Source: Helicobacter didelphidarum (lineage in GTDB: Bacteria > Campylobacterota > Campylobacteria > Campylobacterales > Helicobacteraceae). Taken from it: DNA of 64,000 nucleotides. A program made the translations under genes and the position numbers. Positions 2,682 to 20,695 of the stretch are shown here, piece after piece; positions within the stretch are counted from its first letter, which is position 1; each line of letters begins with the position of its first letter. Under the pieces are notes generated by a model, which made no database searches, had not been told where the DNA came from, and saw only the letters and a program-made list of their open reading frames with translations. Where the stretch lies: the NCBI RefSeq assembly GCF_003364195.1, contig NZ_NXLQ01000011.1, positions 1-64,000 of the forward strand, written 5' to 3'.

Positions 2682-6171
<3,490 letters not shown>

Positions 6172-6491
6172 ATTTTATCCTTCTGATTTGATTTTTATGT
6201 TTGGAGTATAATAAATAATTTAGTAGTGATAGTAGTATAAGTGAATAACGTGATTAAAAAAAATTGTTGTTTGAAAAGTTCGTTATTCACGTTATTTTCA
6301 ATATTTGGAAAGGAATTGATTTTATTCACGTTATTTTCACATCCATTCACAGTATTATTTTTTAAAAACGGTAAGTATAGCATATCTATTCTTTATAAAT
6401 TCTGAATATAATGTAAATATTGTTAAAATTTCGTTGTTTTAATGTGTTTTTAAGGTAAGATTATTGGTTGAAATTGTAGATATTTTAGATA
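6172..6491. other. Candidate oriC part 2: DnaA-box cluster and AT-rich region between dnaA and dnaN
   Basis: No gene lies here. Sites matching the Helicobacter DnaA box (reported consensus TCATTCAC) with at most one or two changes occur at 6241-6248 (GTGAATAA, reverse), 6283-6290 and 6322-6329 (TTATTCAC), 6333-6340 (ATTTTCAC) and 6343-6350 (CCATTCAC). GTGAATAACG at 6241 and CGTTATTCAC at 6281 form a perfect 10-bp inverted pair. The remainder is strongly AT-rich and could be the unwinding element. H. pylori is known to have a bipartite origin flanking dnaA, with unwinding in the downstream half. Assigning that role here is inference from position and motifs. Confidence 0.7.
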
Positions 6492-7850
6492 TTAAGGGTT
6501 TGATAATTTTAGCTTAGATATCATGTTTTCAATTTCCATTTTTAAATGTGGGTCTTGTTGTAGTTCATCTGTGATAGATTTAATTTGTTTGCTTACTGCA
6601 CTATGATCTTTAAGATTTAGTTCAGCTGCAATGCTAGGGAAAGTTGCGTGGATTTGGTTTCTTGCAATATAAGTAACAATTTTTCTTGCTTTTGCTGTGT
6701 TTTTCTTTCCGCGAACTTTTGTTTTTATTTCGCTTGGTTTTATATTATATTCAATTGCGACTATTTTTACTATATCATCGAAAGTTATTTCATGTTTTTC
6801 TATTTCTCTATCTTTTAAGACATGTTTTACTGTTTCTAGTGTGATTGGCATTTTTAAGATTGACATGTGTGCGTAGAGGTTTACAATTATACCTTCTATT
6901 TCGCGTATGTTATCGTGGATTTGTGTTGCAAGGAGATTGATAATTTCAGAATCTAGCATAATATCGTTTTGCTGACATTTCTGTTTTACTATGTTAATTT
7001 TTGTTTCAAGTTCTGGAGATTCTATTTTTGCTGTCATACCACCACTGAATCTTGATTTTAGTCTTTTTTCTAATTTTTCAATTAGTTTTGGTGGTTTATC
7101 GCTTGTCATAACAATTTGTCCATTAACATTAATAATTTCATTGAAAGTATTGAAAAACTCTTCTTGAAATTTTTCAGTTTTTGCTAAGAATTGGACATCA
7201 TCAATAAGGAGGTAATCACACTTTCTAAATCTTTCTCGAAATTGATCCATTGTTCTATTATGTAGTCTATGGCGATATTCATTAAACATTGTTTCAGCTG
7301 TAATATAAACGATCATAGCATTTGGATTTTTGCGATATACTGCATTACATATAGCGTTGAGTAAATGTGTTTTTCCTAATCCTGTGTTCCCATGTATAAG
7401 AAGTGGATTATATCTTGCACGATATTGAACAACCTCCCTTGCTGTTTCGTATGCAAAGCGATTACATTCCCCTACAATGAAATTATCAAAGCGACATTCA
7501 GTATTTGTCATAGATTGATTGTTTTTCATAATATATTTTTTTTGTGAATTATTTTTAGATTCTTCAGTTAAGTTGGATTCTGATTTAAGTCTAAAGATAA
7601 TTTCTACTTTAGAATCTTTCCCAAGAATATTTTGAATATTCTCTTTGTAATTTCGTTTTACCCAATTTAGTAAGAAAAGATTATCTGCTAAAAAGATGAT
7701 TTTAGATTCACTTGAATGTTGTTCATCAAAAGAAATTTTACTAAGATATTGATTATATTCTTGTGGTGAAATTTGATTTTTAAGGGTAGCAAGAATTTCA
7801 GTTCTATTAATCGTTTTATGTTCTTTTTGGTTGTCAAATAAGCTATCCAT
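6492..7850 (-). CDS. dnaA: Chromosomal replication initiator DnaA
   Basis: DnaA binds DnaA boxes at oriC, opens the duplex and recruits the DnaB helicase encoded at 25-26.7 kb. The 452 residues show an N-terminal interaction domain (about 1-90), a linker, and AAA+ domain III with Walker A GNTGLGKTHL and Walker B LLIDDVQFL. Domain IV carries the DNA-recognition helix region around LKDHSAVSKQIKSI (family form is R-D-H-T/S-x-V). The protein ends KLKLSNP. The gene is flanked upstream by eight 11-bp repeats and downstream by a DnaA-box cluster, which suggests autoregulation and a bipartite origin. Confidence 0.98.
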   Translation of the reverse strand: MDSLFDNQKEHKTINRTEILATLKNQISPQEYNQYLSKISFDEQHSSESKIIFLADNLFLLNWVKRNYKENIQNILGKDSKVEIIFRLKSESNLTEESKNNSQKKYIMKNNQSMTNTECRFDNFIVGECNRFAYETAREVVQYRARYNPLLIHGNTGLGKTHLLNAICNAVYRKNPNAMIVYITAETMFNEYRHRLHNRTMDQFRERFRKCDYLLIDDVQFLAKTEKFQEEFFNTFNEIINVNGQIVMTSDKPPKLIEKLEKRLKSRFSGGMTAKIESPELETKINIVKQKCQQNDIMLDSEIINLLATQIHDNIREIEGIIVNLYAHMSILKMPITLETVKHVLKDREIEKHEITFDDIVKIVAIEYNIKPSEIKTKVRGKKNTAKARKIVTYIARNQIHATFPSIAAELNLKDHSAVSKQIKSITDELQQDPHLKMEIENMISKLKLSNP

Positions 7851-8161
7851 TCAATAATACCTTTTTAATTCACATATTTTATAAAAGTATATCTTATTTT
7901 TAGTGAATTAAGAGTGAATTAAGAGTGAATTAAGAGTGAATTAAGAGTGAATTAAGAGTGAATTAAGAGTGAATTAAGAGTGAATTAAGAGTGAATGTGG
8001 ATTTTATTTTATTAAGGATAGTTTGTGTATATTTAAAGAATGCTAAAATGCCTTTATATTAATTAGAATGAACTTGAAACTTTTTTGATTGTATAGTATA
8101 ATTTTATTTTTTTATTCATTATAATCTAAAACTAAATTTAAATAAATGAAAGTCGGTGTAT
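7851..8161. other. Candidate oriC part 1: intergenic region upstream of dnaA
   Basis: This 311-base spacer separates the divergent dnaA and the glycosyltransferase at 8162. It holds a TAATTCAC site at 7866-7873, the 11-bp repeat array at 7903-7996 and then an AT-rich tract. The dnaA promoter should also lie here. Nothing in it codes for protein. Confidence 0.65.
7903..7996. repeat. Eight perfect 11-bp tandem repeats plus a partial ninth (origin iterons)
   Basis: The unit GTGAATTAAGA is repeated eight times without change (7903-7990), followed by GTGAAT. Read on the other strand each unit contains TTAATTCAC, one base from the Helicobacter DnaA box TCATTCAC. The 11-bp period puts all sites on nearly the same face of the helix. 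The array starts 53 bases upstream of dnaA. There are no spacers, so it is not a CRISPR. A DnaA-binding iteron role is inferred. Confidence 0.85.
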
Positions 8162-9187
8162 ATGTTAGAACACAGAGATAATATTATAGAAAAGGAATCA
8201 TATCAATGGGAGTTTGAACAAGGGGATATGATTTATGCACCAATTTGTATTATTGTTTATAATCGAGTTGATAAAATTCAAAAAGTCATTGAGTGTTTAA
8301 GTAGAAATACTTTGGCAAAAGATTCTGAGGTTTATATTTTTTCAGATGCACCAAAAAATGAGGGTGCTAAGCAAGGTGTGCAAGAGGTTCGTGATTATAT
8401 TTATTCTTTGCAACAGAAAAAACATGGTTTTAAATCTTTAGAGATTATAGAAGCACAACAGAATCTTGGGATTAAAAATTCTGTTGTGAAGCAAGGCAAT
8501 TTTATTTTTAAAGAAAAAGGATATGATAGATTTATTGGTTTGGAAGATGATATTGAAACACACAATTTTTTTTTACAATATATGAACGATGCTTTAACAT
8601 TCTATAAAGATAATCAACAAGTTATTGCTATTACTGCTTTTACACATCAAGAGGCAAATCTTAAGAGTAAAACACTAAAAAAATATCCTCATAAAGTTTT
8701 ATTTTCTTATGCTTTTCATAGTTGGGGTTGGGGAATGTGGGCTGATAGATGGGAGCATATTGATTGGGAAAAACCGGATATAAACTGGTTTTTATATAAT
8801 CCAAAACATTGGTTTTATGGAAACATACTTTCATGGTTACATTTATTAGCAATTAGAAATTCTCAAAAAGATAGGCAAGTAACAGAATTATGGGATATAT
8901 ATTTATCTTCTGTGGCTTATAAACAACAAAAGGTTTGTGTCTGGCCTAGCCAACTCTCATATACGCGTAATTTTGGCTTTGATGGAAGTGGTGTTCATAA
9001 GTTTAATTTTGATGAAAATATCGTTAATTTTGAGTTTGCAAATCCGCAAGAAAAATTAGAATTTACACATGATATAAATTTAAATATGTGGTTTCATTTT
9101 AAAATTGGATTGAGATATGGTTTGGAAGTATGGGTTTTTGGGTTCTTTAAAATGTTTAGAAACAAGATTCTGAGAATCAAGAAATGA
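8162..9187 (+). CDS. Glycosyltransferase, GT2-like (GT-A fold)
   Basis: The protein (341 residues from ATG 8162; GTG 8156 is an alternative) begins its domain with APICIIVYNRVDKIQKVIECL, the first strand of a GT-A Rossmann-like fold. GLEDDIETHNFFLQYMNDAL at about residues 125-145 supplies the DxD-like metal/nucleotide-sugar motif. A conserved aromatic segment SYAFHSWGWGMWADRW follows. Such proteins transfer sugars to lipid-linked or surface glycans. No signal peptide or clear transmembrane segment is seen apart from a hydrophobic, aromatic C-terminus (VWVFGFFKMF) that may touch the membrane. It is a single gene transcribed away from the origin. The sugar specificity is unknown. Confidence 0.8.
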   Translation: MLEHRDNIIEKESYQWEFEQGDMIYAPICIIVYNRVDKIQKVIECLSRNTLAKDSEVYIFSDAPKNEGAKQGVQEVRDYIYSLQQKKHGFKSLEIIEAQQNLGIKNSVVKQGNFIFKEKGYDRFIGLEDDIETHNFFLQYMNDALTFYKDNQQVIAITAFTHQEANLKSKTLKKYPHKVLFSYAFHSWGWGMWADRWEHIDWEKPDINWFLYNPKHWFYGNILSWLHLLAIRNSQKDRQVTELWDIYLSSVAYKQQKVCVWPSQLSYTRNFGFDGSGVHKFNFDENIVNFEFANPQEKLEFTHDINLNMWFHFKIGLRYGLEVWVFGFFKMFRNKILRIKK

Positions 9188-20031: not shown

Positions 20032-20695
20032 CTTTTACACCTTACAATATAGAAATTAAAAACACTTTAGAGAATATACCCCTTAAGTTTTTTCTGTCGT
20101 TATGCTATCAAAAAAATCAAGAAAAATCAAGAAAAATCAAGAAAAATCAAGAAAAATCAAGAAAAGATACTTTACAAAAATACATTTTTAGAAAAAAATG
20201 ATAAATTTTTATAGATTAAAATCTCTGTAAGTTTCTCTAGAAAAATAAAGTTTTTTAAGTTTCATCTTTAAGAATTAAAAGGGTATTAAAAGCCTATGAT
20301 TTTTAGACATTTAGTGTATAAATATAAACTATAAAAAAATAATTCTAAGTTGTGTTCTTAATAGGTTTTAGAATTGTTTGCTGTTTTGTTGTGAAAGTGT
20401 GGTTGTATTGCAATAAACTAAGATATTAAGACTATGTTTAGCAATATTTGATTATATAAGGTAATTTATTAATGTTGATGCAATAATGTTTAGAATCTAT
20501 CAAAACTTCTTACTCTAAGTTATAGTATTTTATGGAGATAAAACTAAAAATAAAATACATTCAGGATTCTAAAATCTTTTTATATTTTTATAATGAAAAT
20601 GAAGTATAATTTGATTATGGCATTTATGTAGAATTTTTATATCTTTTATTTCTACATATCTTAGCTTTTGTGTTACAAAATAATAAGGATTTTAT
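20032..20695. other. Divergent intergenic region, 664 bp, with repeat array
   Basis: This region lies between the lipoprotein operon (minus) and marC (plus) and must hold both promoters. The 20111-20160 repeat array is closest to the lipoprotein gene. A TATAAT-like GTATAATTT lies near 20604 on the marC side. No further gene is visible. Confidence 0.5.
20111..20160. repeat. Five 10-bp tandem repeats (GAAAAATCAA)
   Basis: Four perfect copies and one with a single change lie head to tail. The period matches about one helical turn. They sit 80-130 bases upstream of the first lipoprotein gene. Copy-number change would alter promoter spacing, a known mode of phase variation, but that effect is inferred. 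Confidence 0.8.

Follow-up and report, generated by a model that had tools for sequence, protein, structure and literature searches.

In Helicobacter didelphidarum, a tandem array of DnaA boxes ahead of dnaA very probably combines oriC1, i.e., the upstream part of a two-part chromosome origin that depends on DnaA, with the dnaA promoter. The array lies in a 64-kb stretch of DNA (the window, i.e., the whole stretch analyzed) and begins 52 bases upstream of dnaA. On the forward strand it comprises eight letter-identical 11-bp units (GTGAATTAAGA; 7903-7990), exactly as a preliminary description of this DNA had claimed, followed by GTGAAT (7991-7996), a partial ninth unit, and then GTGG. Tandem Repeats Finder placed the array at 7902-7996 (period 11, 8.6 copies, 100% matches, score 190), and its score ranks first among the 15 tandem-repeat arrays of the window. 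A genome-wide search found the doubled unit at a single locus in the 2.59-Mb genome, and the reversed control had no matches. Read on the dnaA strand, the array is a repetition of TCTTAATTCAC, in which each 9-mer box plus 2 bp gives the exact 11-bp period. Nine DnaA boxes in the same orientation are predicted on the minus strand (7902-7998), eight of the sequence TAATTCACT and a distal one of the sequence ACATTCACT; all nine contain TTCAC, the core of the DnaA box in Campylobacterota (PMC5043019). The near match to the Helicobacter DnaA box noted earlier also holds, because TAATTCAC differs from TCATTCAC by one base, with the TTCAC core intact. Both in relatives and in the oriC2 half, TTATTCAC is favored over TAATTCAC, and the affinity of DnaA for the array may therefore be modest. 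The units had further been described as facing the same helical side; however, an 11-bp unit does not stay strictly on one face, and at 10.5 bp per turn the sites drift by ~17 degrees per unit and ~137 degrees over eight steps.

Pfam searches confirmed that the gene behind the array is dnaA (6492-7850, minus strand; 452 aa including a domain IV helix-turn-helix; DnaA_N, Bac_DnaA and Bac_DnaA_C, PF11638, PF00308 and PF08299), followed by dnaN (5062-6171, minus strand; PF00712 and PF02767); gyrB, dnaN and dnaA are all on the minus strand in the window. In Campylobacterota origins, DnaA boxes are clustered on both sides of dnaA, as oriC1 upstream and as oriC2 downstream (PMC5043019). The dnaA-dnaN gap, corresponding to oriC2, contains five predicted TTCAC-core boxes, three of them TTATTCAC: TTATTCACT (6240-6248, minus strand) and, on the plus strand, TTATTCACG (6283-6291 and 6322-6330), ATTTTCACA (6333-6341) and CCATTCACA (6343-6351). 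At the end of the gap facing dnaN, a signature search identified a DUE-proximal box with a DnaA-trio (TTCAC-TTATA-CTACTATCACTACTA; 6221-6245, minus strand), the predicted unwinding signature of oriC2 and the only match in the whole genome; box and trio together are known as an unwinding signature from H. pylori and B. subtilis (PMC8235120). Because of this companion oriC2, we read the array as the oriC1 of a bipartite Campylobacterota origin; unwinding would be expected in oriC2, while the array occupies the oriC1 position. The GC skew, proposed earlier as a check on the origin, places it only roughly: the third-position skew changes sign at the dnaN/gyrB boundary, ~1.1 kb from the trio. GC skew was rejected as a precise map of the origin, being ~1.1 kb off locally and noisy in the complete relative G013, in which the minimum of the 200 kb examined lies 43 kb away. 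A skew switch between dnaN and gyrB, not at the trio, was seen in most genus members tested (L192, L194, L196, L197 and G013).

The oriC1 of H. pylori consists of five boxes (c2-c3, c-ATP, c4-c5) spaced 2 bp apart (PMC8235120). The array resembles it in lying directly upstream of dnaA, in the TTCAC core, in the single orientation of boxes separated by 2 bp, and in having an oriC2 partner with a trio downstream (PMC8235120, PMC5043019). It differs in that the five boxes of H. pylori are of mixed sequence and include an ATP-DnaA-specific one, whereas here there are nine, eight of them in identical units. The H. pylori ATP-DnaA box TYATTCCWT was found in neither the oriC1 nor the oriC2 half with one mismatch allowed on the dnaA strand, the sole near match (8112-8120, one mismatch) being off-strand; this box was not taken as defining the class, because the literature examined reports it for H. 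pylori only. The H. pylori HP1021-site pattern did not occur in the array. The unwinding signature here is located in the dnaA-dnaN gap, whereas the two genes are not neighbors in H. pylori. The low-affinity arrays of the E. coli oriC (R5M/tau2/I1/I2 and C3/C2/I3/C1) likewise consist of 9-mers, all facing the same way with 2 bp between them, that support cooperative growth of a DnaA filament (PMC6727663); unlike the units studied here, these sites are weak, are not alike in sequence and distinguish ATP-DnaA from ADP-DnaA, and they belong to a continuous origin that is not at the dnaA promoter. In B. subtilis (incAB/incC), DnaA-box clusters also flank dnaA on both sides, with the trio in the downstream half and looping between them (PMC8235120), which may occur here as well; its upstream cluster, however, has 13 boxes over 620 bp, and no perfect 11-bp repeat is described for it in the literature examined.

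The preliminary description regarded perfect arrays of this kind as typical of plasmid origins and unusual at a chromosomal oriC. Only the letter-perfect identity is unusual: arrays of 9 + 2 bp have been published for H. pylori oriC1 (PMC8235120) and E. coli (PMC6727663), and they recur upstream of dnaA across the Helicobacteraceae. That the units are plasmid-type iterons left by an integrated replicon is extremely improbable, even though perfect head-to-tail repeats near an initiator gene are what iteron plasmid origins display, because the initiator is DnaA, each unit consists of a 9-mer DnaA box and two further base pairs, dnaN and gyrB follow, and the related arrays are chromosomal. A plasmid origin was also rejected on the basis of a database search, the adjacent initiator being DnaA rather than a plasmid Rep: none of 72,556 plasmids matched the array (the low-complexity filter may hide short repeats), and the single plasmid match (50 bp, E=6e-3) was outside it. 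The array was also unmatched in a search of viral contigs.

The comparison covered the genus of the window (14 genomes), the family Helicobacteraceae (121 genomes) and the order (399 genomes). Relatives have 3-6 boxes in the same 11-bp register but with differing units: L003 has six TTCAY boxes over seven successive registers, in L002 each of five successive registers holds a box, the units being unlike one another in both, and genus mates reach at most seven registers versus nine in the species of the window. Two adjacent TTAATTCAC units at the same spacing were found in none of the 120 other Helicobacteraceae genomes (121 searched). This absence, together with the 100% identity of the units, which implies a recent origin, might suggest a neutral minisatellite in which slippage amplified one box into functionless extra copies. 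Such an explanation is very unlikely, because the relatives keep 3-6 boxes in register although their units differ, and the phasing is thus maintained without recent duplication. In 77 non-redundant dnaA upstream regions of the order (the window's own excluded), 105 of 175 same-strand TTCAC pairs were spaced at 11, 22, 33 or 44 bp (shuffle mean 0.19), 50 pairs at exactly 11 bp (shuffle mean 0.07), and TTCAC was oriented along the dnaA strand versus its reverse at 207:68. Period-11 runs of at least three occurred in 12/14 genomes of the genus, 18/81 other Helicobacteraceae and 6/17 from other families, runs of at least three at periods 8-10 and 12-14 were almost absent overall and did not occur within the genus, and the 11-bp peak was lacking on the dnaA-dnaN side.

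Four TTCAC at an 11-bp pitch were present in 10 of the 399 genomes of the order (reversed control, 0). Eight of these arrays are upstream of dnaA (including one at the end of a contig with dnaA at its other end, the contig being assumed circular), one is just downstream, and one is beside a relocated trio at ~300 bp. The three-fold pattern was found in 17 of the 121 family genomes versus 2 for the control, and 16 of the 17 matches are, in our judgment, at dnaA or beside a trio. Given these placements, the phased array comes close to being a marker for replication origins in the order. In L144 (G348), a four-box 11-bp array (1501-1538) directly follows dnaA on the oriC2 side and precedes the trio, so that the phased array can sit in either half.

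A further probable role of the array is that of dnaA operator. A -10-like TATACT, the presumed dnaA promoter, was read from the sequence at 7886-7891 (minus strand), 11 bp past the proximal TTCAC core, and is at the same position in L002, L003, L005, L009 and others; the sigma-70 consensus scan listed no site at this element because a recognizable -35 is lacking. An inverted DnaA box (TAATTCACA; 7866-7874, plus strand) in the dnaA leader is conserved in position in most relatives, with 29 bp between its core and the proximal core in the window. Most members of the genus show the same pattern of a proximal TTCAC, 9-11 bp, a TATACT/TATAAT-like -10 and then an inverted GTGAA, and the core-to-core gap is 28-30 bp in 10/14 genomes. 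DnaA boxes therefore overlap or flank the predicted dnaA promoter in a conserved arrangement, and with the proximal box at about -24 to -32 and the inverted box just downstream of the -10, a DnaA filament should limit the access of RNA polymerase. The array might even be an operator only, repressing dnaA and titrating DnaA while origin assembly needs oriC2 alone: the sandwich of box, -10 and inverted box is conserved across the genus, the unwinding signature is confined to oriC2, and several bacteria are known to autoregulate dnaA (PMC8203912). However, the H. pylori origin is reported to need each of its subregions for oriC function, and its two halves loop together (PMC8235120); phased arrays are also found at origins that have moved away from dnaA, where they cannot be there to control it. 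We therefore consider an operator-only role unlikely. The earlier suggestion of a role in initiation and/or dnaA control is in keeping with a plausible double role.

For an array acting as both oriC1 and operator, we infer the following sequence of events. DnaA monomers would bind the nine same-facing boxes, and the 9 + 2-bp pitch would allow head-to-tail stacking of adjacent AAA+ domains. The resulting filament would contact DnaA bound at oriC2, in the dnaA-dnaN gap, with dnaA looped out, and unwinding would follow at the oriC2 DnaA-trio. The same filament should limit the access of RNA polymerase and thereby hold down transcription of dnaA.

A divergent glycosyltransferase gene (8156-9187) is located on the other side of the array, and its strong promoter-like element (TTGAAA-17-TATAAT, 11/12; 8074-8102) is 76 bp from it, which could indicate a contingency repeat controlling this gene as in phase-variable surface genes. 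This is highly improbable, because the arrays of relatives occur without a glycosyltransferase neighbor (those checked had no such gene close to dnaA), changes of 11 bp ahead of a -35 are unlike known spacer-length switches, and the unit is a DnaA box.

We regard the array as a real, functional-looking oriC1/dnaA operator of a known kind that is unusually homogenized. Its letter-perfect identity probably arose when slippage recently homogenized or expanded, in this lineage, an ancestral array that was imperfect but equally phased, and slippage or unequal exchange spreading one unit through the array would be the simplest account. As a consequence, the array lacks both the TTCAT variants that are scattered among the boxes of relatives and the ATP-type box known from H. 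pylori. A more far-reaching possibility, which we put forward tentatively and think rather doubtful, is a self-homogenizing origin module: the perfect repeat would gain or lose boxes through slippage, always in full units of 11 bp, and a strain-variable copy number would set the cooperative filament of DnaA, the repression of dnaA and the threshold for initiation, without the mixed-affinity, ATP-gated boxes of other origins. The 9 + 2 geometry is already known, since the sites of H. pylori oriC1 and E. coli were published as 2 bp apart; the letter-perfect homogenization and the order-wide phasing are new. We found no chromosomal origin with letter-identical tandem box units in the literature, which is weak evidence because the search covered open-licence papers only. 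A class-wide study reported no conserved DnaA-box pattern in the origins of Epsilonproteobacteria/Campylobacterota (PMC5043019), whereas we observed that a large proportion of the genomes have an 11-bp pitch in common upstream of dnaA. Because eight boxes are identical, the effect of box number could be tested without confounding differences in sequence, making the species a natural experiment on how box number affects the growth of the filament, the control of dnaA and the timing of initiation.

Candidate origins away from dnaA were encountered in other genera. In a Helicobacteraceae genus (g6) that seems, judging from the boxes on either side of dnaA, to include H. pylori, many genomes (G061, G062, G067, G068, G071, G073, G087, G089, G090 and G091; loci L113, L118, L121, L123-L129 and L137) lack dnaA-strand TTCAC boxes upstream of dnaA and carry the box and trio signature elsewhere, so that the origin appears to be separated from dnaA; several of these relocated signatures adjoin a common neighbor that in our judgment resembles acpS. 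Two species of g6 (G069 and G070) each have two origin-like elements of ~350 bp with DnaA boxes and a DnaA-trio far from dnaA (L228-L231; G069 C1:486800-490800 and 160800-164800; G070 C1:982200-986200 and 1488000-1492000). The two loci are common to both species, and identity between the copies is 98.9% in G070 and 83.5% in G069; it is possible that they are duplicated chromosomal origins. In another genus of Helicobacteraceae, box and trio are ~8-85 kb from dnaA (G097 C22:218104, G101 C1:1059297 and G103 C1:1886968). In the window itself, Tandem Repeats Finder also detected a 10-bp repeat (ATCAAGAAAA) in six copies with 98% matches at 20107-20165.
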